Positions 1-62,808 of a stretch of 64,000 nucleotides of DNA are shown here, piece by piece (the first letter of the stretch is position 1; each line of letters opens with the position of its first letter). Source of the DNA: Rhea pennata. Its lineage: Eukaryota > Chordata > Aves > Rheiformes > Rheidae. The notes under the pieces were generated by a model that saw nothing but the letters and a program-made list of their open reading frames with translations, had not been told where the DNA came from and did no database searches. The stretch lies in the NCBI RefSeq assembly GCF_028389875.1, contig NC_084677.1:11574017-11638016 (forward strand), given 5' to 3'. The position numbers and the translations under genes were made by a program.

Positions 1-9337
<9,337 letters not shown>

Positions 9338-18279: not shown

Positions 18280-20425
<2,146 letters not shown>

Positions 20426-20534: not shown

Positions 20535-21353
20535 ATGCTTGTCTCTTGTAGGAATATGGTGAAAGAAGACTTAAACCAGAAACAAGTATATGAAAGTGGC
20601 CCAGGTTATTGCAAGGCAGCAACTCACCTTACACACAGGCATTCTTTGTTGAACAACTCTCAAAATCACAGTAGCAGTTTACGAAAAGAATTACTTTATT
20701 TTAAGGTCAGGAATTGTTCAGTCTTTAATACTATACCTTTGCATTATATCAGCAAGAAAATGCTCCCAAGTTTGAGTGAATCAGCAGTGAGAAACTCAAG
20801 TACAGCTGCTTCTTCAAAGGATTCACTTTGTCTGGATTTTTCTTCTGAGAAAGACAGACTTGATAAGGTTTCTCTCTGCATTAACAGTACTTCAGTAAAG
20901 AGCTGGATGGAGAAAGTTTGTTTTGCTAGAGACTTGAGTAGCTGGTGCTGTCCAGGAGACAACATTGTATGTTTTGCACGTTTCTGGCTGTCAAAGTTGC
21001 AGTATAATCCAAACCTGTGGTCTCTGGAATTGGAAAGGAGTGGCAGCATACAGAATAAATTGCAGCTTCCATTTCCTGAAGAATTAGAATTTGGTGGACT
21101 TTCTGGTCTTTATTCTATTCTAGTTGCCTCACTGAGTGAATATACTGTGGGACTCTTAAACAACCAGAAACCATGTTTTTTTCTTTGTTACTTAAGCCTT
21201 GTATCTTCAGAGCAAACAATTGGATACAAGAAAATGCTTTCAAACATAAAATGTGTGACAAATAATTTTCTCATCATACAGCTAGTAACTTTTGTGCTAA
21301 CTTTTGCACTAGCAAGTCTCTGGTATGCAGTAGCAAAGGTAAAAAAGTACTGA
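20535..21353 (+). CDS. FAM220A: FAM220A-like protein (272 aa)
   Basis: An intact single-exon ORF of 272 residues. The C-terminal third aligns with mammalian FAM220A as I know it. The best anchor is SEQTIGYKKML (residues 225–235) against SKQTIEFKKML, preceded by a similar LxSIL…/LYSIL stretch. Mammalian FAM220A (SIPAR) binds STAT3 and favours its dephosphorylation in the nucleus. The rest is poorly conserved, which is typical of this family. Residues 245–266 form a strong hydrophobic segment followed by KVKKY at the very end, which suggests a tail anchor. An in-frame TGA lies 15 nt upstream of the ATG. A second ATG at 20,556 follows a possible acceptor (cttgtag|GAATATGG) and could be the start in another isoform. 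Its position between RAC1 and CYTH3 and its strand match the human order. Confidence 0.75.
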   Translation: MLVSCRNMVKEDLNQKQVYESGPGYCKAATHLTHRHSLLNNSQNHSSSLRKELLYFKVRNCSVFNTIPLHYISKKMLPSLSESAVRNSSTAASSKDSLCLDFSSEKDRLDKVSLCINSTSVKSWMEKVCFARDLSSWCCPGDNIVCFARFWLSKLQYNPNLWSLELERSGSIQNKLQLPFPEELEFGGLSGLYSILVASLSEYTVGLLNNQKPCFFLCYLSLVSSEQTIGYKKMLSNIKCVTNNFLIIQLVTFVLTFALASLWYAVAKVKKY

Positions 21354-28403: not shown

Positions 28404-28451
28404 CTCTTGCTCATTGAACAAAAATCCAGCACCGGTGAGGTGTTCCCCCCC
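28404..28451 (-). CDS. Gene 'beta' possible downstream exon (HLTGAGFLFNEQE)
   Basis: Minus strand. HLTGAGFLFNEQE reads into an excellent donor CAAGAG|gtgagc in phase 0. If unspliced, the frame stops four codons later, which would make this a terminal exon. The acceptor side is unclear because a G10 tract (minus strand) lies where the pyrimidine tract should be. Possible AG sites at the G run or at ctcctag upstream fit the two donor options of the exon at 28,959–29,085. The upper border is approximate. Confidence 0.25.
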
Positions 28452-28958
28452 CCCTTTTTTATGCTAGGAGCTGGAGCCTGTAATAACTTTCTCTGTGAAT
28501 TATTCACAAATAACCCTTCCAAACACACTGATGTTGCCTAGCCTCCTATAATCAAAAAAAAAAAATCTGCTCTACAGCAGAGGGTCTCAAATCTCCTTTG
28601 AAATTTTACCCTTACATTCCAAGTATTGCACGTTGGCTACATGCATGTATGGCATGCTCCAGAGCTAGAATAGTTGCAACCTTTCTAACTTCTGGTCTTT
28701 GCTTGCAGTAAGACTTCCCTAGAATTAAAAAAGCAAACTGTGAGGATAAATAGGTCTATTAATTTGGATTGTTCCCCTCTTTGGATATACTATAAATAGA
28801 AGTAATTTTATGAACTGTGTAACACCTAAGAACTTGCTTGTTCATCCTTAGGTATTTGTCATGTTAGGTCAGATTTGCAGACGATGAATTTTCTATCACT
28901 CAATCAGGCTGAAAGTAGGAGATTACCACAGAAACTAGACTTACTTGTCTGTCCTCAC

Positions 28959-29085
28959 CTAGTCGAGAAAGACTGACATCTTTAACAGTTTCCAAAGTCA
29001 GAGAGCCTTCTTTTATCTTCCGTTCCCCTCCAGCTGCTGAGTGATAGTATCTGTGCAGACGATAGCGGGTTTCAAGTCCTTCACT
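28959..29085 (-). CDS. Gene 'beta' coding exon (RYRLHRYYHS)
   Basis: Minus strand, acceptor cactacataccag|AGTGAA, 42 codons: SEGLETRYRLHRYYHSAAGG, then ERKIKEGSLTLETVKDVSLS and RL. It leaves at CTAG|gtgagg (phase 1), or at GACAA|gtaagt (28,945, phase 0, adding GEDRQ). It enters in phase 0, matching the exon at 29,325–29,517. A second acceptor at 29,111 would enter in phase 1. Codon choice and residue mix look like real protein. The family is not recognised. The opposite strand is also open here, so strand is supported by the linked exons. Confidence 0.55.
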
Positions 29086-29324
29086 CTGGTATGTAGTGTG
29101 TTCCCTACGATCTGCCGGTTAAAATAAAAGCTGTTTGGTTTGCGTGGTCACTGTCAAACATGAGTTTCAGAGCTCTTCCTCGCATTTTCTTTCAGTGTCT
29201 ATAATCATTAACTTGCAATTGCTAACTGTACTTTCTGTTTTCTTTTTAGTTAGCTAAACTCCTTAGTTGCCAATATCAACAATCTAGAAGTCTGTAAAGA
29301 TTTTCATCATTGGATTTTTATTAC

Positions 29325-29517
29325 AGTCACTTCATCAAGCTTCTTTTGCACTTGCTCAATGTAAAGTTTATTCATATAGTATCCATAAGGCACTGTAGCC
29401 TTTCCTGAATGGACTGTTTTAGTAGTGTCTTTTTCTTCCATATAGGAAGTGCTTCTTTGTAGGCCATTTGAAATAGCATTGGCCAAAGCTTCAACTCCAC
29501 GTTTGTATATATAGTTA
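29325..29517 (-). CDS. Gene 'beta' largest coding exon (64 codons)
   Basis: Minus strand, acceptor gcatttttttatag|TAACT. The frame reads NYIYKRGVEALANAISNGLQ, then RSTSYMEEKDTTKTVHSGKA and TVPYGYYMNKLYIEQVQKKL with DEVT. It exits in phase 0 at ACT|gtaata, or six bases earlier at GAA|gtgact. If unspliced, it stops after IKIQ. It enters with 1 nt, matching the exon at 29,576–29,646. A 64-codon exon free of stops, with protein-like composition and matched phases on both sides, is the strongest single piece of evidence for this gene. Confidence 0.6.
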
Positions 29518-29575
29518 CTATAAAAAAATGCTCTCTCAGTGAAAATACCTCTAGTAAAGTCTTTGTTACTGATAC

Positions 29576-29646
29576 ATACTTGTCAAACCCAGCAGCTGAT
29601 CTGCCTGGGAAGGAACTGAACTTCTACCTCCTAGCAGATACTCTAG
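29576..29646 (-). CDS. Gene 'beta' coding exon (LEYLLGGRSSVPSQADQLLG)
   Basis: Minus strand, good acceptor tcattatttatcacag|CTAGAG. Phase 0 entry gives LEYLLGGRSSVPSQADQLLG, then LTS, and exit in phase 2 at AGTAT|gtatca. A nearby donor ACAA|gtatgt would break the frame of the next exon. Joined to the previous exon it reads QQDRLTLEKLEYLLGGRSS, a smooth continuation. Confidence 0.5.
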
Positions 29647-30162
29647 CTGTGATAAATAATGACATATACCAGATGACTCTTTTCAAACTAACATACAAAA
29701 GCTTGAAAGGTGAGGAATAAACTATATGCTGCTACATTTGGCATTCAAATGCTATTAGTAGAAGCACCCACTTTTTTCTTTTCTATTCTTTTCTTTTCTC
29801 TTTTCAGAGGCAATAGATCTGAAATCGGCAGACAGAAAGCCTAAAATAAGAAACAGTGAACCAGTCTAATGAACTTAAAGTCAGCTCTTTATTATAAAGT
29901 TCTTTTATATCCATACAATTACTTTAGATTTGCTTTAATGACTTATTTTTTCCCCTGATACTAGCTGATACATTACTTAGAAAAAGACCGAGAAAGAAAG
30001 AAAAAGCACTTTGAGCATGTTCTTTGTTTAATTTTGATAGATCATTTTGCCAGCAAAACAGGATGAGACGTGAATTACAGCATGAGACAAAAGACAACAT
30101 AGATACAAACTATCATTTTTATGTTATGACATAAATTCTGTCAAAAAGCTCAAGCTTGCCTT

Positions 30163-30179
30163 TTTTTTTTTTTTTTTTG
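30163..30179. repeat. T-rich homopolymer
   Basis: A T run of about 18; a second run of about 25 T lies at 30,397–30,420. Both fall between gene beta exons. Confidence 0.85.
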
Positions 30180-30860
30180 AGGTGCCGTTAAATAAGTATT
30201 AGAAACGGGCTTAGCGAGAACTAAAAAAAAAGAAGTAGTATTTTCTATCTGTTTTACAGGAAAGGGAAATTATACTTTTACCATTTTTTCTTCAGTTGTT
30301 ATTTCTGTTCTCTCTTCAGTCCTACATACACCTTATCAAAATCTAGAATGAGGAGGTAAAGTAGTCCATTCTAAATTTGAAGAAAGCCAGAAAGCTTTTT
30401 TTTTTTTTTTTTTTTTTTTTCATTTAGAAAGTATAGGGACTATGAAATTTGATACTAGGATTTATCTGTTAAGTAAATTAAAGTGGTTTTAGGAGGGCAA
30501 ATCTCAGCTTCAATCCTGTAATCCAATCACACACGATCAGTACTGATGCTCTGCCTTGGCTTAATTGGAGCCCTGTAAGCATGAGGACCTTCCTACATGA
30601 ACTAAATTGCAAGGTCAGGGCTTACGTGTTTTATAGGAATTCCTTTAAATTTAGACTAAGTTTAAAGTCCAGGCCCATTGACAGTCCAGTCAATAATGTG
30701 AATCTTCCCAGTGACTTGGACGGAAAGCACAGTCACCTCCTAGATAAATATTACATGGGAATACTAAAGGGCACAAAAACCAAAGCCACATATTACAACA
30801 TTCTTTAGCTACTTAGAATGATAAAGCGATTTGCCAATCACAGCCACTTAAATTACTTAC

Positions 30861-30922
30861 CTTTTCTAGTGTTAGTCTATCTTGCTGCCAGTAATGACAA
30901 ATCAGCTTCCCAGTACCATATA
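30861..30922 (-). CDS. Gene 'beta' coding exon (VYGTGKLICHYWQQDRLTLEK)
   Basis: A 62-nt minus-strand exon with a near-consensus donor GAAAAG|gtaagtaa and acceptor tgaatttatag|TATATGG. It enters with 2 nt and reads YGTGKLICHYWQQDRLTLEK, leaving in phase 0. Entry phase fits the exon at 34,493–34,558 and exit phase fits 29,576–29,646. Confidence 0.55.
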
Positions 30923-30929
30923 CTATAAA

Positions 30930-33900
30930 TTCATAATTTTACTAAAATGTTTTATTTGCCAGTATTTTAATACACACTCATCTGATCATACTTATGCTCC
31001 TACGTGCCCAGTAAAGGACAGAACGTGTGATTTAACGATCAAAGCGCAGGACCTGTAGTTACATTCTCCTCTCTCCAGCGACTCATTAAGCGATGCTGGA
31101 CCAAATACGTCTCTTTTTGCTAAACAGGAATGATATATTCTTGAAATGCTCTGAAATTCATTGCATATATTCCAAATATTGTGCTTCTAGGAAAAAAAAT
31201 TATTCTGAAACAAATTGTCAGCTTTTAGCAGCTGAGAAGTAATAAACAATGTCCAAAATTACAGCACACCCCACGGTCTTCTACAACAGAGAAAACTCCT
31301 AGGAATCCTGGTTTATTAAATAGTATAATTTGCTACTTCTCTTGAATGATTAAATTGATAACAGCTTTTGCTAACAATGTTTATATAGCTTTAGTCTCTG
31401 GTGTTTTTTGATCGTAAATTATCTACCCGGAACTGCAAGTAGTGACTGATAATAAGGTTATTGCAGTCTTCTATGCAAAGTAGGTGTTACCACTTCGTAT
31501 TCCTTCCCTGGAATATTATGTTTACTTTTTTTGTGTTTCTCTACAACATATTGTTCACGTGGGAAATGCTGGTATCTTGCATTATTTTCCTTAAAACTAC
31601 TTTCTGACATTGGTGCAATAGTTAAAAATAAATTTAATATTTTTAGCAACTATTAATGATTGAGAAAATATATTGGACTATTTTTGGAATGCTGAAGTAA
31701 TAAAGTTATGCCAAATTATATTCATTAAAAAGTCCTTACAAGAAATTAGGATTGTTAGAGAAATTAGTATGAAAAAATATTTTCAGAGCTTTTTCTTTTG
31801 ATAATTTAAAGCACAGTAAATTCTGCTTTCAAATTAATCTAAAGCATTCAGGACACTAAAGAATTAGATACAAAAACATCTAAGAATATTTCACAGATGG
31901 ATTTAATATAGGAAAGAGAAAACAGTTCTTGTCAACAAGTTAAAGTTTATCACTGTGAGAGACAGAGATGAAAATAAATAGTACTCTTATCATCAGTTTT
32001 GAAAATCCAATCAAGATGTTGTAGTTTTATCTGCCAGCTTATTTTTCAGTTCTGGAGTCCTGTCTACACGCAGGGTTTGGGAAAGGCCTTAGAGATGGGC
32101 ATAGAGAGCAACAGTATGGTTTTGTTACTCATGAGAATTTAGCTGTGCTCATTATGCATCTTCTGCTGAAATTATTTCTCTTCTAGCAGGAATAAAACCA
32201 GAACAGAGGCCTTACCAGGCCAGAGAGCAGAAAACAACCTTACAGAAGAGTTATTTTCCATAACTGAACTAACCTCCCACTTTCCCCAAGATGTTCATGT
32301 TTTTTGAAGTGTCCTCAGTCAGCTGCAGGTTTTCAGAACTTTTATGTGAGAAGTCTTTCAGGTGCAACTGTCTGTCATTTCCTAAAGCTCTGGATTTTTC
32401 CCCCAGAAATATTTAAGTAAATGAAGAAGATACTCAGCATGAAGCATTCTTTATCCAGTATGAAAACGTTTAGCAGTCTACTTTAATAGCTTTGTGGATT
32501 AAAATTGTGCCATAGATGTCTAAAATAGTTGAATTATTTTTCCATAAAATGTGCTTTAATAGTTTTGATAGTAACAAAAAGAATTACTCTCAAATATATC
32601 TGCAGTAGCTTTGTTTAATTTTGAATACTTGGAGATCTGCTAAATGCTGCTGAATTATAAACCTGATGCAGATATCCTCAGAGCAGAGCTAGCATCTATA
32701 CAACTGCAATTTCTGTGTTTGAAAACATAATCAAGCTCAAAAAGAGGCACATAAGAAAGGAAACTCAAAAATAAAATGTTTTCTCAAATTACTTTGTAGG
32801 ACATTAGTTTTCAAACACATCTATTGTATTTTGTACACTAAGTCAAAAAATTTATGCTTGTTTTATCTGAAGCATGGCAATCTGCCAACCTTAGCTTTTA
32901 GAGATAAATTCTGCTATTCAGAGTAGAAGTTTTTATATCTGAGGCCACTTCCTTCTGCTATTTTATCATCTTCCTGGTTTTGTCTGTTTTCAATAAATGC
33001 CTTTGTATTTTCACATCTTTTATATGCATGTATACACAGATCCTTTCCTCTGTACGAAAACTGACAGTTGCAAGTTTAAAGGATAAAAACCAGACCGTTG
33101 ACTTCAATTTCATTGCACTAATGCACTAAATAGCTGTTTTTGAAATATACCATAAAAAGATCTTAATATGTTAATTTTAAAAGTATTTTCTGAATTAGGG
33201 AGGGTGAGTTGATGTTTCATAACCAGGTTTTAAAAAGAAAAGAATCTCTGCTATAGCTATATTTAAGCACTCAGTTTGACATACAGAGGCTGGATTCTCA
33301 GAGTGAAAGTGAGTTACTTTAAAGCATCTCAAATTTAAACATACTGAAATTCTAAAAAGAAATTATTGTGAAGTCCAGTCATCTCCCCTTCCTCTGTCCA
33401 AAGCAGCTGAATGTTTCTGCCTGAAGAGAAGAACCTAAAAAACTCAGAAGCAAGGAGAAAGCAGAGAAAGAAAGACCAGAGATCTCTGCATACACAGTGG
33501 AGCAAAAAGACTTGGGAAACGTGGAGAACAACAAAATTAGAGGTGGTCGGGGAGAAAAATTAGATGCAATAAAGCAAACTGGAGAAAACTAGAGCTTTTG
33601 ACACAAAACCTGGAAGCTGGTGTTAGTGATGTTACTACCCATTTGAACAATCTGTCATGAATTCTTCTTTCCCACAGAAAAGTGTTGCAGAGGATATAAG
33701 TTGCAAATCATCACATACCAGTCTTTTTATAAAGCCCTTTTTGTTGTTCTCTAGACCTGTTCTTTTACAGTTATATTAGCTGAGTAAAAATAATGTGAGC
33801 AGTCCTATCAGGCTTAAATTACATTTTTATTTCTTAAGGATGATTATTTTATACTATGTTGACTGAGATCACAGGAATCTTTTTCTGTCCACAGAGGAAC

Positions 33901-34490
33901 TATATATAAGGTACCAAATTGTGTAACTACACAGAGGTAAGTGGAGTTACATCAGGAATTATTTTGACGAGTCTCCTCCATTTCCTTGGAAACACTCTTC
34001 ATTTCAGTACTCGCCAGGTTTTCACTTTGACTTTCCTTTGCTTAACATCTTGTAGTTAGAGACAAAGTTTTTCTTTCTTAAAGACCATAATGAGAAATAC
34101 AGCATTAGAAAGACAGTTAAGGTGAAGATTTTTTTTTAATTGGAAGTATATTTCTTATGATAAAAAAATACCAAGACATTTTTGTTGACGAGGAAGCATA
34201 TGGGATTATCTTATTCTTACATCTGTAAGGATGTGAAAGGAATAAAATAGTTTGTGTAATCATGGGAAGGAAAGAATTTAAAAGATGTTTTTCTCCTTCA
34301 GACCTTGTCTGTTTTTTTCTAGCTATACTAGTTAGAATATAATAGGGATGGTTCTTGATTAGAGACAGTAGGAACTTAAAGTATTACACATCACCTTTTA
34401 ACAAGAAATCACTTCCCCTTTTACACCTGAATTCAGCAGGAACTATGTATTTAAAAATTAACCTACAAGAGAAGCTGAAGACAAGCTCTC
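30930..34490. other. Beta intron or intergenic sequence
   Basis: A 3.6-kb AT-rich stretch with no coding signal that I can support on either strand. Confidence 0.5.
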
Positions 34491-34492
34491 AC

Positions 34493-34558
34493 CAGAATAC
34501 AACTGCGATTCAATGACTTCCATAAATTCACTCCTAGGGTCGCCACATGCACAAAATA
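34493..34558 (-). CDS. Gene 'beta' coding exon (DPRSEFMEVIESQLYS), possible start codon
   Basis: Minus strand. The frame FCACGDPRSEFMEVIESQLY with S runs to a good donor TCTG|gtgagag and leaves in phase 1, joining VYGTGK of the next exon. The acceptor gtttgtactaag|TATTTT is weak. An in-frame ATG (MEVIESQLYS) could be the translation start if the upstream exons are non-coding. Confidence 0.45.
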
Positions 34559-35949
34559 CTTAGTACAAACTAAATCCAATGGTTTGAATTTGTTAAAGAA
34601 AAAAACCCACAGTTTTGAAGGGTGGTTTTACCCCTGACGATTTTATGGTAGAGTTGGTATAATCTGTCTCCCTGCTCACAGTATAAAGCCAGGATAAAAC
34701 TTGGTCTAAACATTGTAATTCGTACTTAGCTAATCCTGGCAGGAGTGCAACTACATATTCATATTTGAATGGGATCAATTCAGTACCACTAAGTGATTTA
34801 GTATTACACAGACCACATATTAATAAACATATAAACCTGGCTATAGGCAGTTTGAGATAGGCTGAGCATGAGCGATCAAAAACTGAAATTGATGGAGAGC
34901 CCCTGACACCGTTTGCAGTTCAGAATAAGGCTAGGGTTACACCAGGATCTTGTCTCCACCGACAAAATTTAAGAACTCATCACTGCTTTCCCTTCTTCTT
35001 CCCATGTCATCCTTGTGTCACAGTCTACCAATGCTGCAATTGTGCCAGTGCAACTGTTTGTAGGACCAAGATGCAAACTTAGATGCAAATTCCACTGAAT
35101 TATCAGCAGGATAATTCAAGTTAAAAACAACTACTTTAGGATTTTTTAATCTGTGTTGAGTGATCCGATTTACAGCATGGCTCCACAGTTACATCAACAT
35201 GACTGAGAGGGCACTAAAAGTCACAGTCACTAGTTGGCAGTTCTTACTCCTGTCTAAATTTATGGTCTGATATTTATTAATTCCAGATTTATGCATTGCT
35301 GACTAGCCAGCAGCCCAGATTTGAGCCAGCTCATGTGGAGATACGCAATTGTATATCAAATGCTTACTGCTGAAGCAACAAGAGTACCTGATCTAATCCT
35401 TCTAATACAATGGTATGAGTGTGCCCAGCTTGTCACTTGGATGCCAGCCAGGGCAGCTGCCAGCTCAGGCCTTGACTGGATTTGAGAGTGGCATGTAATA
35501 ATACATTTACACACCCTAAAGTTGGAGTTAGCCAGAAGATCTGAAATCACAGACTACAACTCTTTCTCAGGATGGGAACAGAGTATGGTCTTGCTTAATG
35601 CTTTCTCTTTTGGAGAACAGGATTCTACTCACTTTACATCAAGCTCATTCAATTTCCTTAGTTAGAAAACCCTCTCAAACTCAATACAAAATCCAACTGA
35701 TGATTGGGTTAATTCCAGGTCCTTTGAATCCAAGTCCTCTTTTTCTGTTATTTTAGGCATATCTCTCATATTGGAAGTCATCCTGTTTGTGTCTGGCTGT
35801 ATGCATAATCAGTACTCTCAGGTAGAGTAAGTTCTAATGCAAAGCGTATTTCAGATCAGAGTATTACAGAGCTGCTGGACCTCTGCAATTTTTAAAAGGT
35901 TTGCTTTTCCTCTCTGGGACACTGCGGTGTTCTTTACTCAGTGACTCAC

Positions 35950-35987
35950 TAGCAGCCCCTCTCAGTGTTACACAATGGAAACCAGCA
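35950..35987 (-). CDS. Gene 'beta' tentative upstream exon
   Basis: A 38-nt minus-strand segment with donor GCTA|gtgagtc and acceptor ttggaaatcag|TGCTGG. It is open as AGFHCVTLRGAA. It enters in phase 2 and leaves in phase 1, which bridges the exons at 37,568 and 34,558. Short, so phase fit is the main support. Confidence 0.22.
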
Positions 35988-36510
35988 CTGATTTCCAAAA
36001 ACAGTAATGTTTGATGCTACGAGTAAATTATGTCCATTTAGAAGTCTTAAAAAACCTCAAAATATGTCAATAATTGTAATTTAAAGCAAGTTGCAAACAA
36101 AATCCAGATATGATTTAGAAGTTCATCTGTTTTCTTTCTCCCAGTTTTGATGTTCCCCCAACCAATATAAAATACTCGCATGTAAAATTTATCTTGACTA
36201 AATGAGAGGTGCAAACTCTTTTGAAACTGGTAAGACAACCAGCAAAGAAGACTTTCTATAAACGTATTTTTCCAGCTGAGACAAATATGATGTGTGTGAC
36301 AGCATAAAAAATTTAAGAAGCAATACTTGGCTAAAACCCATCTGCCAGACAGAGAAAATCTAAGAGTTGCCTTAAGGGATCAAGAAAAACAGATTATTCA
36401 AGTACTGATAAACCATAAAATGAGGGAAAAAAGACATGATGATGGACTAAGAGTTTCCTGCCTGGAAATTATCAGGCAATGCTTCTTAAAAGTTTTTTGA
36501 TTGTCTAGAT

Positions 36511-37008
36511 CTCCCCTGTACAAGAGAGACATGGAGCTACTGGAGAGAGTCCAGCGCAGGGCTGTGAAGATGATCAGAGGGCTGGAGCACCTGCCCTGTG
36601 AGGAACGGCTGCGAAAGCTGGGCCTCTTCAGCCTGGGGAAGAGAAGGCTGAGGAGGGATCTTATCAATGTGTACAAGCACCTGAAGGGAGGGTGTCAAGG
36701 GAACGGGGACAAACTCTTTTCAGTTGTCCCATCTGACAGGACAAGAGGCAATGGGCAGAAATTGAAGCACAGGAAGTTCCGCCTGACCGTGAGGGGGAAT
36801 TTCTTCACTGTGAGAGTGACGGAGCACTGGACCAGGTTGCCCAGAGAGGTTGTGGAGTCTCCTTCTGTGGATCTCTCCGGAGATCTTCAAGGCCCACCTG
36901 GATGCAACGCTCTCTAACATGCTCTAGGTGACCTGGCTGAGCAGGCAGGTTGGACTAGATGATCTCCAGAGGTCCCTTCCAACCTTACTGAATCTATGAT
37001 TCTATGAT
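36511..37008 (+). mobile_element. CR1 retroposon, 5'-truncated
   Basis: A non-LTR retroposon of the chicken-repeat-1 class. The 5' end reads into the C-terminus of the CR1 ORF2 ([20 protein letters not shown], about 130 open codons). The 3' end carries GGTCCCTTCCAACCTTACTG followed by the ATTCTATG octamer that marks bird CR1 tails. The copy is about 500 bp, the usual short truncated form, and well preserved. It lies between candidate beta exons. Confidence 0.95.
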
Positions 37009-37567
37009 CTGAAACAAAAGTTTTCTTTAATACAAATACAATGATTGAGTTTCAATGACAGTCACGCTGATTATCAACAAGATATTGTCTTAGGAAATGA
37101 AATACTTGCATCATTTTTCTAAACGTGAGTATCTAAATGAACAAGTAACAAAATCAACCAAGTAATTCTTATTTACAAAATGCTGCAGAATATCTATATA
37201 CCTTAAGCATGTATCCTGTTTTTAAAGATATATCCATATTCTTTAAAAATATTTGTACGTAGAATAATATTTTATATTCCTTGCATTTCAATGTTTTTTA
37301 AAAAATATTTAATTGTATTCTTCTGAAATACATATAGATGTTTTTTCATATGAATTTGTCTCCTTGCAGGTAACAATAAATCCTTCTTATCAAAACTAGC
37401 AGAAGTCACAATAAGCCAGACTTGTAAATGAGTGATGTGTTGACTGAAGACATGAAACAGGACTACTTGCATATGGGATGACTACCACCTTAACTAAGAT
37501 CTGAAAGATTCTTTCTTCCTTCCAACACTAAGATGCATCGCTCCATCCCCCTGTGACTGACACTTAC

Positions 37568-37604
37568 CAGTCTGATGGCACACTGGCAATTACTTGATTT
37601 CCTT
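37568..37604 (-). CDS. Gene 'beta' tentative upstream exon (GNQVIASVPSD)
   Basis: A 37-nt minus-strand segment with a strong donor GACTG|gtaagtg and good acceptor catttcttaacacag|AAGGAA, open as GNQVIASVPSD. Enters in phase 1, leaves in phase 2. Confidence 0.3.
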
Positions 37605-38296
37605 CTGTGTTAAGAAATGCAATTACGAATTTTCTCATATCTTTTAATAAATTGTTACCAATTCCCTACTACTGTCAACGTAATGAACATCATCATAGCT
37701 CATGCTTTTGATTAGAATTACAAAGTTAAAAAAAAAGCTATGGTCATAAAATGGAGTTTTACATTAATGAAACATTTACATTACTGAAAGAAGAAACTTA
37801 TCAAAGTAAGATTAAGCTTATTTCTTTCTACAAGAAAATTGAAGATGAAATCAAGATCATTTCCAGAATTTTCATTAACTGATAAAGAGCTATACAGAAA
37901 AAAAAGGAAGACACTCTTGTGGAGGAAAGGATATGACAACCAGCAAGGCTTTTCTACTCCTAAATTCTGTGATTATTAAAAAAAAAATGGGGGACAGTAA
38001 TTTTCATTCCCTATTTATTGCTATCTAGTTTAAAATGCAATCCATAGCAATCTTGCTAATTCAAGATTTAATGAGACCCTTAAATCCTTAAATACAAAAC
38101 AGTACAGATTAAATGAAAACAATCTACAATACAAAAATATAGCTTTTCTCACAAGCCCAGTACCCATCTAATGTAAATTAAGTTCAGTGTGCAAAACATT
38201 CAAAGCCCACTGTCAACCATCTCTGCATTCAAACTTGTTTTAAAGCCATCCTGTAACTGCGCTTTATAGATCCATAGTTCACAACAAATCTCTTAC

Positions 38297-38332
38297 CAAG
38301 GTAGTACTTCTGTTCAGTGTAACCGTCTCCTT
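38297..38332 (-). CDS. Gene 'beta' tentative upstream exon (GDGYTEQKYYL) at the edge of the CYTH3 island
   Basis: Minus strand. GDGYTEQKYYL runs to donor CTTG|gtaagag and leaves in phase 1, fitting the exon at 37,568–37,604. The acceptor (gtgcgtaag) is weak and an in-frame TAA lies just before it. I find no in-frame ATG upstream on this strand in the island, so this may be untranslated or wrongly framed. Confidence 0.22.
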
Positions 38333-39438: not shown

Positions 39439-39463
39439 ATGGACGAGGAGGGCGGCGGAGGCG
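39439..39463 (+). CDS. CYTH3: CYTH3 (cytohesin-3/GRP1) coding exon 1
   Basis: The ATG at 39,439 encodes MDEEGGGG and then splices at GGCG|gtaagcgg. Cytohesin-3 begins with the same acidic–glycine N-terminus (MDEDGGG…). It is an ARF guanine-nucleotide exchange factor with a coiled coil, Sec7 domain and PIP3-binding PH domain, acting at the plasma membrane in insulin signalling and integrin recycling. Only this 25-nt exon is in the window. The next coding exon (PEDLSLEEREELL…) was looked for up to 64,000 and not seen. Identification rests on the N-terminus, the CpG promoter and the RAC1–FAM220A–CYTH3 order and strands. Confidence 0.85.
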
Positions 39464-39761: not shown

Positions 39762-40629
39762 CCGCTCTGCCGGAGGTCGGTAGCGAACGGCGGATTCGCA
39801 GCAGGCAGCGCGTTTGGCGAGCGCGCGTGTGTAAAGCCGGTCTGAATAACCAGTTCTGCCGTCTCGTCGGTGCTAATGGTGGCTGGAGTGAGCCGGGAAG
39901 CGGCCGGTGCCGCCGGGGGCGGCGGGAGGGACCGCGCGGGCCGGCCCGGGCCCCCGGCGGCCGCGGTGAAGAGCTGCGGGGCGAATCCGCCGAGCAACAG
40001 CGTGAACGCGCCGCGTTTGAGCGCGCTGGTTCCCGTTCAGAGAGGCGAAGCGATGGCTGAAGCGCGTGTGATTAAGCGCGGAGATTGCTAATTCTAAGTA
40101 GAATTGCCCGCAACTCGGAAATCGAGTGGGTGCGGTGTTTGTTTTGACAACTTGGGGGGGAAAAATACCAAGATGAATCAGAACAGTAAGTCTTCGAACA
40201 GCCCTGTGTAACTGTGGCCGTTTCTCAGCGCTCCTCTCGCTTGATTTGTCCGTGATCGATTAGCAAAAATCCGAAGAGGGAGCACCGTGACAAAACAAGC
40301 CAGCCCTCGTTTAAAAATTAGCATCAGAAACACTGGAACACTGTGAAGAGCAGAAAACTCATTCATACTCAAAATAATGTTATTTTTACAGTATCGTGGA
40401 CTTGCATCTGTCCTAAAGGGAAGTTATTGTGCGTGTTGACACTAAACCCGCGTCAGGTGGTTTTTTTCACGTGTAAGACTTTAGACTTTAAAGTGGACCT
40501 GTTGCAGAATCAATCTTTCATAAGCTGCTAAGAGTTTCAGAGCTGAGTTTTCAGGGGAGAAGAAATACTCAGAATCTCAGGAGGATTTGGTCTGCATTTA
40601 GTAAGACTAGTTGTATTGCTGAAGAAGTC

Positions 40630-40638
<9 letters not shown>

Positions 40639-40667
<29 letters not shown>
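40639..40667. repeat. (TA)n microsatellite
   Basis: About 14 TA units. Confidence 0.95.
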
Positions 40668-40673
<6 letters not shown>

Positions 40674-41274
40674 TGTTAAATGTGCAAGTTAAACTATTCT
40701 CTAGATTCAAGCCCATTCCTTTCCTTTTTTTTTTTTTTGGTCAAACTACAGTGTATTTTCTGTTCCTCCTTACTTGGCTTTACAGTAAAACAGTCACAGA
40801 CCAATAGGACTGGAAGTTTTTCTGCAATCAGTGTGTTTGGACTTTTACACTAGGTTCTTGTGAGTATTACATTCCTTTCAAAATAGAGATCCATTCTGGC
40901 TTCTCTTACGGCACACAATCAATCTGGAACACCAGGATTAGTTAGATAATTTCCAGCTAATGAACTGTTATTTTAAATTAGGATTTTTTTTCTTTCTTTT
41001 TAAACAGTACAGTGCACGTGGAAAGTGTTGATTTGACAGCCAGTCAATTTTAAAATGTTTTAGCGCTGCTGACAAGTCCTGGGATACAACCTAAGTGAAT
41101 CTGAGCAGGGCTGTCAGCATTTTGAAACTCGACAGGACATTTGCAGGGCTCCCAAGATTCTCATTACTGAGTGGGAAACTCATGGGGCTACGCTTATCAG
41201 TGTGTGCAGGTGCTTAGGAAGTGTGCAAAATTATTTGAGAACTGCATAGAATCTCTAATGAGAGACTTGAACTA

Positions 41275-41510
41275 GATAAGCATCTAAATAGCTAGGACAT
41301 TAGACTGTGATTCAGGAGGTAAACTTCTGTTCCCAGTTCAGTTCTGCCTGTTGCCCTGCTCTTCAGTTTAGCTCTCATCTTATGCTTCAGTTTCCTTATC
41401 TATCAAATGGGATTGGTTGTTCTACCACATGTTATAAAAACTGTGAGTGAAAGCAGAGCTATGTGAAGTTGGCTGTTATTATTTTATAAACATTTAATGG
41501 AAGAGAAATG
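41275..41510 (+). repeat. Ancient MIR-type SINE (CORE-SINE/LINE tail)
   Basis: The stretch follows the MIR order: TAGACTGTGATTCAGGAGG, then CCCAGTTCAGTTCTGCCTGTT, then TTCAGTTTCCTTATCTATCA with AATGGGA, ending in GTTATTATTTTATAAA. The matching consensus signposts are 'gattcaggagacctgggttc', 'cccagctctgcc' and 'tcagtttcctcatctgtaaa'. This is a very old amniote repeat, heavily diverged. Confidence 0.7.
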
Positions 41511-43219
41511 TTAATTCAGGGAATTGTTCTTAGTACTGCTTTCTCTTTTGTATGTGGAGTCTGAATAGGGGCTTGCATTTATATTATACAATCCATTTAT
41601 GCACAAAACTCCCATTGATTCAGTGGAGGCTGTGTGCATGGATTATCAATGTGATATGATCCAAGTCAATTAGTGTTTGTTTCAACCTACTTTTGTGTTC
41701 TAGTTAAAATATCTCTGTGGTTCACTTAGTTCAGGAAATTTCTCCTCCCTGTCCTTACTTGGTTGAGTATCACATGTGATCTGACTGAGGTTTTTCTTAT
41801 GTGCGTGCTGTTAATGTAGTGATGGTACCATTGAACTGAGATCTTTACATTGAATATTGGTGTTGGCGGTAGGTGGTATGATTGTGTACTGCTAAATAGT
41901 AAATCTTCTGTGTAATTAAAGAATATATAAATAGTCTATGTGTATCACTGTATAGAAGACATAGCAGAATATGCTTATTTTTTTTTCCTTCTGAATTTGA
42001 GTCTAGTCGTGCAATGGCTTCAGAGTCCCCCCAGTTCAACTTGGTGGCTCTCCATCTGGAGACACTACAAGATCAATTACCGATCAACTTTTGTGTATAT
42101 GTTTGTTTTAAACTAACTCTATGAAGGGCTCTGAACAGACATACAAAGAAGTTAAAATCCTGCCTCTGCTTGAAGAATAAACAACACTGTAGCAACTAAT
42201 TATGGCAGAGCACTTCTCTACTGTTTCCCGAACTCCAGGCTTTACTGCTGAATCTTGAAGCTTATTTGGAGGTGAGAGGGCTGCTCAGTTGCTATGCTCT
42301 GCTAGTCCTTGGCTGCACTTGCCAGCAGTGGTGCCAGGTAGGATGTTTGTTTCTATTATAGAGGCAGCCATTTACTAGGAACTAGACTGAGAGACCAGCT
42401 CGACTTGTAGAAGACTCAGAAGAATAGATTTGCTGCCAAAGCAAATTTAGCAATCTGACTTCTGTCTGTGTAGCAAAGCAGTTATCCATTTGTAGGTAAA
42501 AGCTGTTAAATGTAATAAACCCCACAGACAATCAACTTGAAACACTTTTTCTAAAAATGTACATCACCTATAGACATGAGTATCCTCAGGATCTCTTCTG
42601 TTCTTTACATTGTAATATCTTTTAAGGATAGATATTAAAGATAGAATCCATGCGTCTTTCTCATGGTTATATAGACTTGCTTTCTATTTAAGTCTAAAAT
42701 TGCATATTTTGTTCATTGCAAAAGATAAAATACATTTCCTATAAACATTCCTGTGTGTTAGCACTACCTACTCATTAAAGTGGATAACTTGTAGTTTTAA
42801 AGAGTTGTCCGAAAAGGTCTTTGGAGGCAGGTTTGTAGATTTACAAAACATTCTAGGGAAATGTCAAGAATAAAAAAAACACACCTGACTGTTAAACTAA
42901 CCACCTGTGCTGGTTTTAGGGCGAGAGCAAAATAGCTGATACGAGACACAATTAAAAGAAACAAGTAAATGACAGAATCAAGAGCTTCATACTAAAGCTT
43001 TTTTGCTAAATAAATACATATTCATGCTAAATGGAATGTCTTGTCTTTGTTTGTAAAGCTAACCTGTCATTCAATAGTATAATAATTTTACTCCAATTTA
43101 ATATCACTCTAAAAGAAAAATGCCATCATAAAACATTATTAATTACATTTTGAAATGGTAACTATTTTTAGTGGTATCATATATATAATAGAGAAAGAGG
43201 TTGCCATATTTTTCTTAGC

Positions 43220-43303
43220 CTGATGTTCAATATTTTTAGCAGTGATCTGGAGGAAAACATTAAATTATTGCCTATAAAATTGCTAGAGGTTACCAAATTT
43301 GAC
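43220..43303 (+). mobile_element. Fossil CR1/L3-type reverse transcriptase fragment
   Basis: In frame +, 28 codons read LMFNIFSSDLEENIKLLPIK, then LLEVTKFD. This matches the CR1-clade RT block LLFNIFISDLxxxIxxxxxKFADDTK, with the catalytic FADD eroded to LLEV. Old, non-functional. Confidence 0.6.
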
Positions 43304-43679
43304 ATATTATAAAATGACATGCGGTCTCTTGTGCACAGCAACACAAACCACATACCATGAATTGCAGTGGAACAATACAACAATAACATAGCATTTGTCT
43401 GTACTGCTACATCGGGGGGGGGGGGGAACAGTGGGATTTACTTACGGGAACAGTGTATGCTTTGCTGAATAATCTTGGGAATCATGGTAATAGCCACCTG
43501 AATGTGAGCTTCCTGTGTGCTGCTGTTGCTAAATGGATATTACAATCTTTTACCGTCATTGGAGCTACAGGAATCTTTACCGTTTGAGAGGCTGTGCATC
43601 TTGAGGCAACAAACTGTTTTCCAAGATACATTCTGCAGTTAAAATTCAGTTTCTTAATCTTACCATGTTTATTGCATCT

Positions 43680-43731
43680 CTTTTTTTTTCTTTATTGCAT
43701 TTTGCATGTTTTTTTTTTTTTTTTTTTTTTC
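43680..43731. repeat. T-rich low-complexity tract
   Basis: Two long T runs separated by about 20 bases; a G12 run lies at 43,416–43,427. Confidence 0.85.
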
Positions 43732-44299
43732 AAAAGAAAGCAGATGAAATACAGTGCAAATTTCCTCCTGTTTCTTCTGCTCTTCTACTTGTCCAGTAGG
43801 TCTCTCCTTTTCTGGTACAACAGACAAGTTTTATCTCCTGTCCTTTAAATTGTTTCACTTACACTGTAGCTCTGTCTTATCTGCTGCTATCTCTTGCTTG
43901 CTTCCTTTCCCTCCCAATACAAACATACTTTAGTCTCTTTCTTAGTACACCCCATCTTTGGCCCTGTTTACTTCTTGAACTCCTGCCCCATCTCTCTTTC
44001 ATGTTGAAAGTCGTTGAGGGAGCTGCTTGCCTTTGCTGTCTGAAGAGTAGCTCCTCCAGGTTCATCCTAGGTCCTTTCCACACTTGTCCTGACCCCTTGT
44101 ACTCAGTACATTCCCTTCCTCCTTTTTGTCCTGCCAGCTGCCTCTAGTGCTGTTTACTATATTTCTTGTTTTTGAAATCTTACTCTTTCTTGGCTTCTTT
44201 GACTGTTCTCTTCTCATTACCCTTCTGTCTTGTTAATCGTTTTTTCATTTGAAGGTGATCGTTCTCCTTCCAGCTTCTTGTGAGGATTTGCAGGACCCT

Positions 44300-44600
44300 T
44301 CCCTTGGTTTCCTGCTCTTTTCTCCTCTACGTCTTGTTTCTGGATAATCAAATTTGCAAATAATAATTTGAACTATTGTGTATAAGCTGATGACTCACAG
44401 CGTATATTGTCTGTTCCGGATCCAGTACCATCTCTCGCAGTTAAAATGTTGGCTTGTTTAACATCTTAAGAGTGCATAATTATTATCTTAAGCTTAATGA
44501 GTCTAAACCAGAGCTCTTAATGTTGTTTCTACCCTCTGCCTTTCTTGATGTCTGTGGACACACACCAACATCTTGGTTGGTTATTGACAAGAAAATAATT
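44300..44600 (+). mobile_element. Fossil LINE L2-type reverse transcriptase fragment
   Basis: Plus strand. NNNLNYCV is followed by ADDSQRILSVPDP at 44,386–44,424, matching the L2 RT motif (NLNYHCYADDTQLYLSxPP). About 80 nt downstream, KLNESKPELLMLFLPSA (44,492–44,542) matches the L2 block LKLNxSKTELLLFPP. Frameshifts and stops are present, so the element is dead. The pyrimidine-rich block upstream (43.86–44.3 kb) may be part of the same element. Confidence 0.6.
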
Positions 44601-45498
44601 CGATGTTGTAATTTTCTTCAGTTTTCTTTTTAAGAAAGAATGAAGTCATAGAAAAATGACATTAAAAGAGACCACTTGCAATGCAAAAGTATTGGAGTGG
44701 AACACTTTTGCAGTCTTAAAGCTGTGAAATAAATTATGTTTTCCTATACAATATTAATTTTTCTGCTTGAATGCATAGATTTAATCTGATTTTTCTGCAA
44801 GCTTCCTGGGGCTAGCCAGCAGGTAGGATAGCATTTGTGGTGATCAAATGAATCTATATTATATGATATTTTTTTTGCTACCTTTTTGATAAAGTGATAG
44901 TGAGTTATGTGCTTCATTCTTCCTGTAGTTCTTGAATACTTAAGCATGTGCTGTTGAATTGCACTCATATTAGTAAAGAGTTTTGACACATTGACCGTGG
45001 GCTTCATTCACTGAGGATAAAAATAAGTTCTTGGCAGCTACCTCCCTGGGAAAGCCTGTCAACTTATACATTTGTAAGATAGGAATCCTGTGAAAGTGAA
45101 GAACACATGATATTTTACTTTAAGCTGTGCAGAAGCAAAGAAAAAAATGTGTGAACTGCCATGACTGGCATTCCTGAGTTTCTCGCTCTGTGTTCTCTTA
45201 AGCCGTATGTTGTACAGGAAAGACATCTGACTTGGATATTAAAAGTGTATTTAATTATGCCATTGGAATAACTTTAACATCTAGCAAACTTTTAAAAATT
45301 GTATATGACTTCCTCCTTTTAATTCCAACAATTTCATGGGAAAACTTAGTATTGCAGATTTTTTGGACAGCAGTGTTTCCTCTTAGTGGGATAGATGCAC
45401 AAAATCCACTAGAAAACCATGTGTTTTGTGGTCCTCTGAGATTTGCCTGAAGAAGGAAATGGCTTGACCTATTTGGTTGCTATGAAGTAAAAACATTC

Positions 45499-45518
45499 TT
45501 TTTTTTTTGGGGGGGGGG
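45499..45518. repeat. T10–G10 homopolymer junction
   Basis: Ten T followed directly by ten G. Confidence 0.9.
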
Positions 45519-46499
45519 TCAACATCTGTGTTGCATCTATTTCATTACTTTCTGAGGTTCTTAAAACTCATTATTTGATAATGTGAAGCTTTATTAAAAG
45601 AAAATGAAGGGATACATAACTGTTTCCACAATTCAATTGAATTTCTGGTATCTGTTTATACATAGGTGTGATATCAATAGACAGTTTTTCCCATAAAGAT
45701 TAACATGTAAAAAGGCAAGCACCTAAAGGTTTTTGCAGTATTTCCCAGAAAAAAAAATGTATTTGTTGCCTCTCTCTTTCTCATGGGCTCCAATACCAGG
45801 TTCTACAGATTAATTTCTTGTCTGGTCATCTTTTAATTGTCAGATTTGATAGAAACTTGTGGATTAACAGGAAACGTAGCATGCTAGAAGCTTGTGAAAG
45901 CTAAATCCTAATCTCATATAGGATATGGAGTGCTAAGATCTCTCATCCAATTTGTTACCAGGTCAGACTTTGCATTATTTTACTAATTAGCCTCTTTTTC
46001 AGATGTTCTGTTTTTTTTCTTATTATAGAAAGAAATAGTTACCTTATGCCAGAAATGCGGAAGAACTGTAAACTCGATACTGTCATTTAACAACCAAGTG
46101 GAAATTGTACTAACAAGAGTATGTTTTGCTGTAAGACTATTAACTGATAGTTGTTCTTAATTCCATGTGAACGTTCTTCTGTTCAAAACAAGAATTGGGG
46201 ATCAGTTCATTAGTGCAACTTGAAACTGATTTAAAGTCTGACTTTCCCTGCCTTCTCTAAGGGCTCAGGTGAATTTTGAGCTGATGAGGATGCTATCTGT
46301 GGATGTGGGTCCTTCACACAAAAACGGAATACCTTGAGTCCTAAACAAACAAACAAAAAACCCTGTGAAAACCGAGAATGATGAAACACAAGTCGATAGA
46401 AACTGTCTAATGTCCCCAAGTCCTCGCCATCTCCCGTAGCAGTCCCAAATCTTTTGTGTGTCCCCAGCGACATACCACACATCATCATCTTCGCAGTAT

Positions 46500-46680
46500 G
46501 CTATTTCTGGCTCCCCACCCCCTACGCGTTTGCCTGGATAAGTAATGTTATTTCATGCGGCTGGATGGGAGCCGTGCTCGCGCTGATTGGCCAGGTAGGG
46601 GGTACGCGTGCGGATTAACTGGCTGCTGGCTGCCTCTCGGGATACGGGAGAGGCTGAGCAGTAACTGTGGGAATTAATTT
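46500..46680 (+). promoter_or_regulatory. Possible internal promoter/enhancer in CYTH3 intron 1
   Basis: A locally GC- and CpG-richer patch in AT-rich intron. It has an inverted CCAAT box (GATTGG, 46,585–46,590), a GATA site (GATAAG, 46,537–46,542) and two ACGCGT sites at 46,524 and 46,604. It could be an alternative CYTH3 first-exon promoter or an enhancer. No start codon or donor is supported. Confidence 0.35.
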
Positions 46681-47377
46681 TAGAGTCTCTTCTCTGCCCA
46701 GCTACCGATTCTCGCAACGCTTTTTGCAGTATCTACTCTGCAGTCAAATCAGATTGAATTTGACTGGAAGGTTTAAAGTACTTAGGGGGAAGGAGTAGAT
46801 GGGTAGGAAATTAAGTTTATTCTGTCTTGCTTGCTCCCTTGCTCTCACACACATACAAACGGGCAAAAAAAAGGCTGAAAGAATTGGCACAGGCAAGTAG
46901 GGAAATTGCTGCTTACTTTTTTTCTGAGAGGAGCTGTGAGTTGTGATCATTTAATGAGTCACGTCTACGTTTTTATACAACCGCCTCATTAACAGTCGAT
47001 GCATCTTCTAGCGTGAAGATGTGTATTTTGCATTATCTGATTCATACTACAGAACACTTTTCAGGTTGTTTTCTTGTTCGAGACTAAGTTCTCAAAAGTT
47101 TTCATTTGCTGTTACATTTTTGCTTTCATATACTGTAAATACTGTGTTCTTTAATAATGATCTTTATTTAGCTCATAAGCAATATTGTCTGTAGGGTCAA
47201 GTTATAACAAAAAACAGTTCCTGTTGCCTTAATAGGAATCTACATAAGAGGAGGCATCAGCCCAAAGGGGGCATTTATAATTCAATAGCTAACTGCACTG
47301 CATATTACAGAAAAGGACATTGTAATCTCTTGAAGAAGTATAATATTTGCTGGTCAGATTCTGAGCACAATTTTCCT

Positions 47378-47397
47378 TATTTATTTATTTATTTATT
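47378..47397. repeat. (TTTA)n microsatellite
   Basis: About five TTTA units. Confidence 0.9.
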
Positions 47398-47613
47398 CAC
47401 TCCCCTCTCTCTGTCTCATGCTCAGGGAAGTTTGGACTAATGAACTTCCTGCCCAGTCATTCTAATATACCGACAAGGAATTTTCCCACCAGGATGTGTA
47501 CTCTCCCTGGGTACAGTTGTGACCGCTTGCAGATGCAATTTTTGAGTTTGTAAAGCTGCTGCATGTTTTTCTTTCTGTATCTCATAACTGGCCAGCCAGG
47601 GGATGTGGAGGAA

Positions 47614-47616
<3 letters not shown>

Positions 47617-47645
<29 letters not shown>
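47617..47645. repeat. T29 homopolymer with T/C-rich tail
   Basis: Roughly 29 T, then a mixed CT tract to about 47,690. Confidence 0.9.
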
Positions 47646-48953
47646 CTTTCTTTTTCTTTTTTTGTTTTTCTCTTCTCCCCCTCTCCCCAGGAAATTGGGG
47701 TTAAACCAAGTGACGGCTAGAGGAGATGGTGGCTCTCAGGCGGAGAAATTCTGCTCCTGTGTGAAGAATCCCACAGATTAAATGCGTTCTCTGACCATGA
47801 AACTTCGATTGCAAACAGGATGGGCTTGGTTTTGCGTAGCACCTTTTGGAATCCGTCTCGAGAAGGCTAAATGAACCTGACCCCTTTCTTAAACGTGTAA
47901 AGTGCTCAGCCATTTGTGATCGCCTACACGGGGAACTACTGTGTACAAACCTGATGATCCAGTTACTGCTCCAGATCCTTGCACTGTGTATGAGGCTGAT
48001 GAGCCATTTTAATACATCTGTGCAGTTTATTCCTTGGGGCAGATGAATATGGGCCTATGTATTGTTTTGTGTTTTTTTTTTCCTTTTTTTCTTTTTCTTA
48101 TTTGTGGTTCCTTTATTTTTTATTTATATATTTATTTATTTTTAACTGAAAGATTTCTGCTTCAGACCCATCCAAAACCAATACTTTAATATTTCAGGAA
48201 TATACCTTCAAGAGTCTCTGTTAGGCTGAAGCAAACCTTAGTTTTGTCTTGCATTTCTAACCCCATACTAGTTGGGGAAAACTCATTTTTCACTGGTTAT
48301 TAGTTGCATAGATGCTGAAACGGCTAGTTGGCATTGTGCAAGTATGAGTTTATAGTCCCAGTAACCTCTTGACTTTAAAGAACCTTGTAATTTAATTCAC
48401 TCTTCTGCAAGTCAGTTTTGACATATCGCTTGTTTAGTTATCCAGCTTACTGTATTATGTACCTGCAGCGTTTTTTAAGTTGCATCCCGCATTCGTCTGG
48501 GGACAAGGAGAACATCTGGGCTTGTTTTCCTGCAGTCTCCTGTCGCTTGTGCTGCTATTCCTGAATTGCACTTTATAGAGAAACTGCTTCTGAAATGGAA
48601 GTTGAAACTAGTAGGCAGTGTTAGTCAGATACAGAGTTTGGAGAAATGACTATTGTGTCTAGGAAACCGATTGCAACCACAGAGGGGAGAGTTTAAAAGG
48701 TTTCAGGTATTTGACTAGTTTGTTGTTCCTTAGTGTAGGGGACCCTACCTGGTTCTGTAAGCTGGGAACCTCAAGTTGACTCTCCTGTTTATTATGTGAG
48801 ATCAGCTTTTCTAGGCAGTTTGTGACATTTCAGCTTGCTGTGGATGTTTCAGTAAGAACAGACAAATAAAGCATACAGAGTGGATTTTTTGGGGGGGCTG
48901 TAAGAAGTGGATTTTTGTGCATTAAATACAGTAACTTAAATGAGAGGAAGCTT

Positions 48954-49004
48954 CCCCCCCCCCCGAGTGTTTTTTTTCCTCTCTCTCCCCCCCCCCTTTT
49001 TTTT
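48954..49004. repeat. C-run and T-run cluster
   Basis: C11 at about 48,954, then C10 followed directly by T8 at 48,987–49,004. Confidence 0.9.
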
Positions 49005-52000
49005 AATCAAAATACTTCTAACTTTCTTCACTCTCATTTTGTGCAATGTTAGTTGGAAAAGTTGCAATGTTTAGTCTTGGTCTTGTACCAATAAATGACT
49101 TAAGTCTCACATGAATGTTTTAAAAGATTAGGTGATATTTTATAAGAGCAAACAGAAAAAGGCTGGTTTAAATCCTTCCGTCTGTGAATTCACTGATATC
49201 CTAAGGATAAAATGACACATTATGTCATTTTTCTTATTTTGCTTAATACTTAATTTCCCCTTGCATCTTCTACCTGTGTTGGAAGCCTGAAAAGGTAACT
49301 TGTATTATGAAGGGGAAAGGTTGGATGAAATTGGTAATCCAAATTAAATACAAATAATACTCTAAAGTTTATGGAGCCTGTGGGTGGATGAACTTGGCAG
49401 ATATATCCTTTGTGGTATGTTAGACTTGAAAGACCATATGGAGCTGATTATTTTCTGGCATTCTGTAGTAAAGGTTTTGAAAGAGGAAAAAATGCCTTTT
49501 TTTTTTTTTTTTTTGAAAAGGATGAAAAATTGGAAGTGCAAATTCAATTTTCATTGAATGGTAAACGTTTGTTGTAGTACCATATGGAAAAACAATATAT
49601 TCAAAATCAAGCTACCAAAAGAAGTTCTCCTACTGTTTTCCTATTGGCTCTCTTGTTTTGTGAACATAGCCAAAGATCCTATGCAGCTGGGACTAATACA
49701 GGATCCAGCTGTAGCTTTTTTATTGTTGTTCAGATGTCCGGTGATGGTCAAATCTAAGTTATTGTGTGGAAATTCAGTAAAGGAAAAGGGTAGGGTGGGA
49801 AAAAAAGTGACTCTCTGTAAAAATATTCCAGTAAAAGCAACAGGAACTAGGAGTATCCATTTCAGAACTCTGCCATAAATCCCATCCTGAAATATTTAAA
49901 CGCCTTCGGATTTTGTTTTAGACTTTAAGTCATACAAGAATTCTTGTTTTATTTTTTTAAACAGGAATAAAGTTAAGTAATTGGAATGGGAAGGTGACCA
50001 TACTTTTAGATTATTTACGAAAGAAGAAATCAGTTGATCATTCATAGTGCAACACTGTAATTAAAATGAAATTCTTTACTCTTTTTAAGGTATTGGTACA
50101 ATATGTAGTGCTGCAAAGTGGAATCCATAGAACAAATTTGACTTTATGAGCTTAATTTATACTCTGTTTCGGTAGTTTCTTTTTTTTCCACAGAGCCTAG
50201 GTAGGTAAGGAGTGAAGAGTGCTAGTATTTCTTTTTTTCCCCTCAGAGTTTGGTTTACTTTGGATATATTTTGTCCTCCTAACTCTGTAGAAGATGGTTT
50301 GGATTGAGATTGAACATTCTGAGTTCAATTAATTCGCATTCAGATACACTGAACGTGAGAACATCTAATGACAGTCAAAATAATGGATCCTTTTCTTATT
50401 TCATTTCAAAACTTTTTTTTTTCTGTGTTAAAAAGGCCAGATTTCTCAGTTTTCTTTATAATTGTAGCCTGTTTCTTAATTGCTTGAGATTAATGGTACA
50501 GAAGTAGAAATGCACTGTCCTTTAAGACTCTGCTTCTTTTCTAGATCTTCCTTTCAGATGTAATTTGCAGATGGAATCCATCAAGTGACTACCCAAATGT
50601 CACAATTGTATTACTGAGTCTTTAATTTTCAATACAGTACTCATCAATTTGTGATTATGCTAGTCAAAGTAATAAGATTAAAAATAACAATATACAAATT
50701 ATAGGTCTGAAGTGATTGGAAGAGCTAGCTTGAAATAACATAAGCTATTTATATTTATCAATTATAGTGAAAGGAATTTTAAACATAACTACAGTCCAGA
50801 GCACAGTCCTGGAAAGTGTTAATGTATTCATTTACACTCGCCTTAGTTCATTGTTGATATTAACTCTTCTATTAGGGGAAAAAAAAGGAACAGAAAAAAG
50901 ATTTGTGGCCAGTCTGTTGGCTTGGCAGATAGCCTGGCACTTTGCCCCACAGAACTAAAACTTAAGAGGAACAACAATTTATTTTCCTTCCTGAGCTAGT
51001 ACGAGCTGATCTGTGACTTCAAAGTGGAAGTGAAAAGTGGACAAAACAGTATGCTTCGTAGGCGTGACACTTCTCACACGAATTAATTGGAATATAAAAT
51101 TTTCTGCAGTTGGTATAGCTGTGTGAAATGTAATAGCTTTCAATGAGAGTTCTTGAACTTGGTCGCCAATATGAGCTGTAAGAATGGGGAGGTTTTGTTG
51201 CAGTGACAGGACTGCTGCTGTCTATGGATGAGTTGTAATTAATAACAGTTGATTTTTATTTGCATCATGACTGAATTAACTTCCTATCAGTATGTGTCTT
51301 GTGAACCTGCAGCCAAATTTTTATTTTTTTGATTGGCATTTTCCTCTAGGTCTCTTAATGTGGCTTTTTCCCCCCTTCTGTTTAATGAAGGGAATGACAA
51401 CACTTATTTCGCTATGTTGCCCCATCAGCCATTTATATTGTATAGCTATGTTCTGCCTTGATTGAGATTGTTTCCTCTCCCAAACACCCCTATATTTGTT
51501 TTTTAATACCTTATTTCAATTTGTTACAAGGCAAATAGTTTACTTTTCCTCTTTTTTGTCATTACAGCAATTAAATAAGCAGATCCTTCATTTCATCTTT
51601 GTTCTCCAAGAATAGTATTTTAAGGCCTTTCTTCCAGTTTTTAAGGGTTCTGATCTTTACTTGAAATGTTCAAGAGCCTAAAGGAATCATTTTCAGTATG
51701 ACTGCCTTGACGTGCAGATCAAGAATCTAACTTAAAGTGCATTTTGCAAAATTGGGTTTATGTAGACTCTGCCTATGTCAAAGGCCATTAAAATTCAGCA
51801 ACTGGAGTAAGAAACTTCGTTTGAAAATTTACTTTAAGATGGTTAGCTTAATTCATGATATATTTAAAGGAAATTCGGAGAATACATGGTGCCTAGGGAA
51901 TAAAATCTACAAGCTAAATAGAAGAAAGTAATTTGATAATGTCTTGAATCACTGAGACAGATACTGCCATGCTATTTAACTGTTGCCATATTATATTATT

Positions 52001-62793: not shown

Positions 62794-62808
62794 AAGCACA
62801 CTGTATAG

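Follow-up and report, generated by a model that had tools for sequence, protein, structure and literature searches.

The series of five minus-strand exons proposed between FAM220A and CYTH3 in the 64,000 nucleotides of Rhea pennata DNA analysed here (the window) is, on balance, not a demonstrated gene as drawn, with exons A, B and C (Table 1) being chance open stretches and D, together with E, an outlier. We hold this view because equivalent chains occur in 31 of 40 stretches of the window, A to C show neither frame contrast nor periodicity, several splice sites are weak, one intron measures 58 nt and no homologue was found. The reading of the whole series as an unrecognised gene, put forward from the sequence, is therefore unproven. 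D, with E, is best treated as a lead: it would be part of a functional gene with a low probability, a coding remnant with a slightly higher one, and otherwise a chance outlier.

Table 1. Features of the proposed series, with positions in the window and splice site scores in bits.
Feature	Coordinates	Strand	Acceptor	Donor	Remarks
Exon A	34493..34558	-	-0.5	9.6	In-frame ATG, MEVIESQLYS; no coding contrast; treated as chance open segment
Exon B	30861..30922	-	0.9	11.8	KLICHYWQQDRLTLEK; coding score -0.2 bits; treated as chance open segment
Exon C	29576..29646	-	4.9	-2.6	No coding contrast
Exon D	29325..29517	-	4.8	-0.3	KRGVEALANAISNGL; best candidate for genuine coding
Exon E region	28945..29111	-	2.2 (29085)	10.4 (28959), 8.6 (28945)	Earlier interval 28959-29085; RYRLHRYYHSAAGGERKIK; both donors strong
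Possible terminal exon	28612..28718	-	7.3		KSYCKQRPEVRKVATILALEHAIHACSQRAILGM; phase fits E; ends in TAA

The series sits on the minus strand between a convergent FAM220A unit and a divergent CYTH3 promoter. FAM220A occupies 20.5-21.35 kb of the plus strand and was recognised by Pfam (PF15487, E 1.7e-43); the protein most similar to it comes from ostrich (80% identity), and one from tinamou shares 70% identity over 71%. The end of this ORF (21267-21350, plus strand) encodes hydrophobic residues and then lysines (FLIIQLVTFVLTFALASLWYAVAKVKKY), in the manner of a tail anchor, and about twelve positions of this C-terminal stretch are invariant in a bird alignment of four sequences; human FAM220A is not known to have such an ending. 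The minus strand carries RAC1 exons 1 to 3, at about 9.37, 2.9 and 1.4 kb, and the same region contains two successive open frames of 95 codons (5067-5642, plus strand). At 39439-39463 on the plus strand, an ATG opens MDEEGGGG and a donor, GTAAGC, follows one base later; judging from the protein sequence, we take this to be the probable exon 1 of CYTH3. Because we found no convincing later CYTH3 exon in the window, 40-64 kb was taken as CYTH3 intron 1.

Other open frames of the window deserve mention. Part of an ORF at 18667-18855 (plus strand), within a CpG island, presumably resembles SMIM10-like small membrane proteins. Two long ORFs, at 36501-36917 (plus strand; no Pfam match) and 62497-62883 (minus strand), share a 17-residue stretch and are, we assume, pieces of CR1 retroelements; they supply the three strongest 192-nt period-3 windows outside CpG islands.

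The geometry of the original prediction largely held. All five intervals are on the minus strand and are each bordered by AG and GT, the phases between them (1, 0, 2, 0) agree, the joined frame contains no stop and the three motifs quoted for the series are found in its translation. The product had been put at more than 200 residues, and the five joined exons yield 172. The splice sites had been described as mostly good, which is true of three of the five donors (A, B and the 28959 donor of E) and fails for those of C and D; among the acceptors, those of A, B and E are weak. These sites fall below the quality of known exons, as judged from RAC1 exons 2 and 3 of the same window (acceptors of 9.9 and 7.0 bits, donors of 4.5 and 4.6 bits), with the remaining sites of the series being fair to strong. 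Better donors occur for exon C at 29580 (5.6 bits), but in a different phase, and for exon D at 29331 (4.1 bits).

The intron between C and D (29518-29575) would be only 58 nt long. For short human introns, the lower threshold of the main population is reported to be 65 nt, with shorter ones confirmed too (PMC4463651), and a described intron of 56 nt in human HNRNPH1 exemplifies splicing at such a size (PMC8363638). An intron of 58 nt is thus unusual yet possible. At the other end of the series, no coding signal was seen in the possible terminal exon itself (0.3 bits), and between 29.3 and 26.5 kb the minus strand has no AATAAA, whereas ATTAAA occurs there at 27032 and 26881.

As a chain, A to E is unremarkable, being no better than chance chains elsewhere in the window. 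For internal exons, splice sites were scored with vertebrate matrices and codons with human usage adapted to AT-rich third positions, the window's own trinucleotides serving as background. The proposed chain totals 63.8 bits, and the best five-exon chain of its own stretch reaches 87. Chains of at least 63.8 bits were present in 31 of 40 equal-size stretches, which were taken from both strands with CpG islands and CR1 pieces masked, overlap one another and include the proposed area; likewise, they were present in 15 of the 18 stretches starting within 40001-56001, in the presumed CYTH3 intron 1. Order-3 Markov resamples attained the score of the chain only once in 60, a null that is too easy, since most real stretches clear that bar too.

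Chains chosen freely from each stretch led to a similar picture. With loose sites, the proposed strand scored 30.9, and 15 other stretch-strands, one of which (1-8500, minus) holds RAC1 exons, scored from 0 to 54.8, eight of them at least 30.9; with strict sites, the proposed strand scored 28.1 and six of the same 15 at least as much. Dinucleotide shuffles were clearly beaten in score, both with loose sites (30.9 versus 5.7 ± 4.6; none of 20 shuffles reached the real value) and with strict ones (28.1 versus 3.3 ± 3.4; none of 60), as is also true of most unrelated stretches of the window. The longest open chains measured 3669 nt with loose sites (shuffled, 3209 ± 301; reached by 1 of 20) and 1118 nt with strict sites (shuffled, 566 ± 231; reached by 1 of 60). 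Since shuffled DNA produces such long open chains with sites as loose as those of the proposed series, 519 nt free of stops carry little weight. An open frame of 91 codons like that of D is not rare either: 56 of 100 shuffled versions contain one. The continuous frame with matched phases does exist, through 172 residues, although chance commonly produces chains of this kind.

Taken individually, exons A, B and C gave coding scores of 1.6, -0.2 and 4.2 bits, frame margins of -0.06, -0.06 and -0.02, and period-3 rank fractions of 0.89, 0.45 and 0.49, that is, no signal of periodicity. The absent contrast is weak evidence, because a true exon, RAC1 exon 2, fails the same test (margin of -0.01), whose power is low at such exon lengths. 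Indeed, both tests are noisy, with RAC1 exon 2 low in contrast and FAM220A, a true gene, low in period 3; because of the latter, single-sequence coding statistics neither prove nor exclude coding. Lack of third-position bias in alignments had been named as evidence against the original prediction; as seen in this single sequence, such bias is lacking in A, B and C, clear in D and moderate in E. We regard A, B and C as most likely unexceptional open segments of AT-rich noncoding DNA, with AG and GT beside them by chance, that were joined by eye to D and E. We infer that these three segments do not code for protein and that no single transcript contains all five exons.

Exon D behaves differently. 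In its claimed frame, it scores 0.20 bits per codon above the best of the other five frames, a margin reached by none of 777 open 64-codon null segments, although the contrast measure was picked after D had been seen. Its optimum contrast (0.22) is the highest among the open 64-codon stretches scanned, which lie outside CpG islands and CR1 pieces and leave out the final 1.7 kb, and the next value is 0.12; at 42 codons the lead is narrow (0.25 versus 0.24). The period-3 signal of D is within the top 3.7% of windows, and its coding signal stops at 29325-29328, the position of the proposed donor. In 30.95 Mb of order-4 Markov sequence, a contrast of 0.19 was reached by only 5 of the 70580 ORFs with 64 codons or more, and Markov nulls predict 0.006 to 0.010 D-like segments per simulated 57-kb window. 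However, these nulls are smoother than real DNA and overstate the rarity of D, because they also undercount E-like segments (4 observed versus 0.2 to 0.3 expected per window). By our own estimate, the real probability of meeting a D-like segment somewhere in the window may lie closer to 0.1 than to 0.01.

Exon E is moderately coding-like, ranking fourth by margin alone at 64 codons and eighth at 42, and its earlier interval has a GC content of 0.46 versus 0.35 in the flank. When exon candidates of both strands were ranked by contrast and site scores together, D (with the donor at 29331) came first with 19.9 and E (28945-29111) third with 16.4, and the best candidate upstream of D scored 12.7. 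Second place was occupied by a segment on the strand opposite to the series (33427-33542, plus), which is open and rich in lysine and glutamate. D and E are on the same strand, separated by 213 to 239 nt according to which acceptor of E is used, with stops between them; of the three acceptors scored for E (29111, 29104 and 29085), only the weak one, 29085, fits the phase of D. No simulated window had a D-like segment near an E-like one (0 of 1238 and 0 of 1135).

A reading of the whole series as chance, based on the chain tests, was revised once D stood out in frame contrast. Against chance we counted the top contrast of D with E close by, the AlphaFold2 model of D, the single success among 60 order-3 resamples and the scores above those of shuffles. 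D, and less surely E, would be an outlier whose codon-like composition comes either from real coding descent or from being the best chance segment of the window.

Searches for relatives were negative throughout. Neither the joined 172-residue peptide (118 candidates of about 95-301 residues, E up to 1) nor D joined to E (3 candidates of 55-173 residues, E up to 10) matched the protein database, in a search that needs exact five-residue words and would miss long or fast-evolving relatives. The proposed series had no match in Pfam, NCBIfam or PDB sequences either. As a control, FAM220A retrieved 19 proteins among 605 candidates, both annotated and unnamed bird-like ones, and was also found in Pfam, being as a single long ORF an easier case than a spliced gene. 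Folded alone from its single sequence, D was modelled by AlphaFold2 as helix, hairpin, helix (mean pLDDT 73, pTM 0.45) and E reached a pLDDT of 57, values that come with no control folded. Structure searches with D (Foldseek, VIA) gave weak matches, prefoldins among them, none of them significant.

Beside our preferred reading, the better surviving alternative is that D and E are unexpressed remnants of a once coding sequence, either a decaying gene that most birds have lost or an old insertion of viral or mobile-element origin, which we consider improbable. Two nearby pieces with signal, separated by stops and with weaker candidates upstream, are what such decay would leave, and the lack of detectable relatives among intact proteins is consistent with it. 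Conversely, there was no match in Pfam, no relative in IMG/VR contigs and no viral structure match for D at E up to 0.001, no second copy of the series within the window and, apart from T-runs and a single pair of 25 nt, neither long repeats nor inverted ends between 28.0 and 38.4 kb, all of which are weak tests for a remnant.

Slightly less probable, in our opinion, is that D and E are genuine coding exons of a functional gene that birds or palaeognaths carry on the minus strand without annotation, divergent from CYTH3 and convergent with FAM220A, whose true neighbouring exons differ from A to C and whose product may be small or fast-evolving and, as modelled, partly helix-hairpin-helix. The frame contrast of D, the end of its signal at the proposed donor, its AlphaFold2 model and the nearby E, with strong donors and in phase at acceptor 29085, all argue for such a gene. 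They are to be weighed against the failure to find related proteins, in both size ranges, where FAM220A proteins were found, the weaker candidates upstream of D, the phase of the higher-scoring E acceptor at 29111, which does not fit D, and the absent AATAAA. More doubtful still is the specific proposal of an unannotated bird gene between FAM220A and CYTH3 that includes D and E, has no recognisable relative and encodes a rapidly evolving protein, perhaps expressed in the germline.

Were D and E real exons, an avian gene absent from annotation would lie hidden in the syntenic block of RAC1, FAM220A and CYTH3, having escaped notice because it has neither homologues nor a long ORF. If they are not, the case illustrates that open segments of AT-rich introns, joined by hand, easily give 170 residues with matched phases; therefore, phase matching and the absence of stops are no evidence of a gene.

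Among known systems, the beta subunits of prefoldin share with the predicted D an architecture of two helices and a hairpin, with no sequence match. The FAM220 family (PF15487) is comparable in that it occupies the adjoining locus and is a divergent protein, and differs in being encoded on the plus strand by one long ORF with clear homologues, whereas the proposed series has no Pfam match. Vertebrate introns also contain false internal exons, which are open segments bracketed by AG and GT. The proposed exons A, B and C resemble them in site scores, in chain score and in their absent codon contrast, and D differs from them by its frame contrast.
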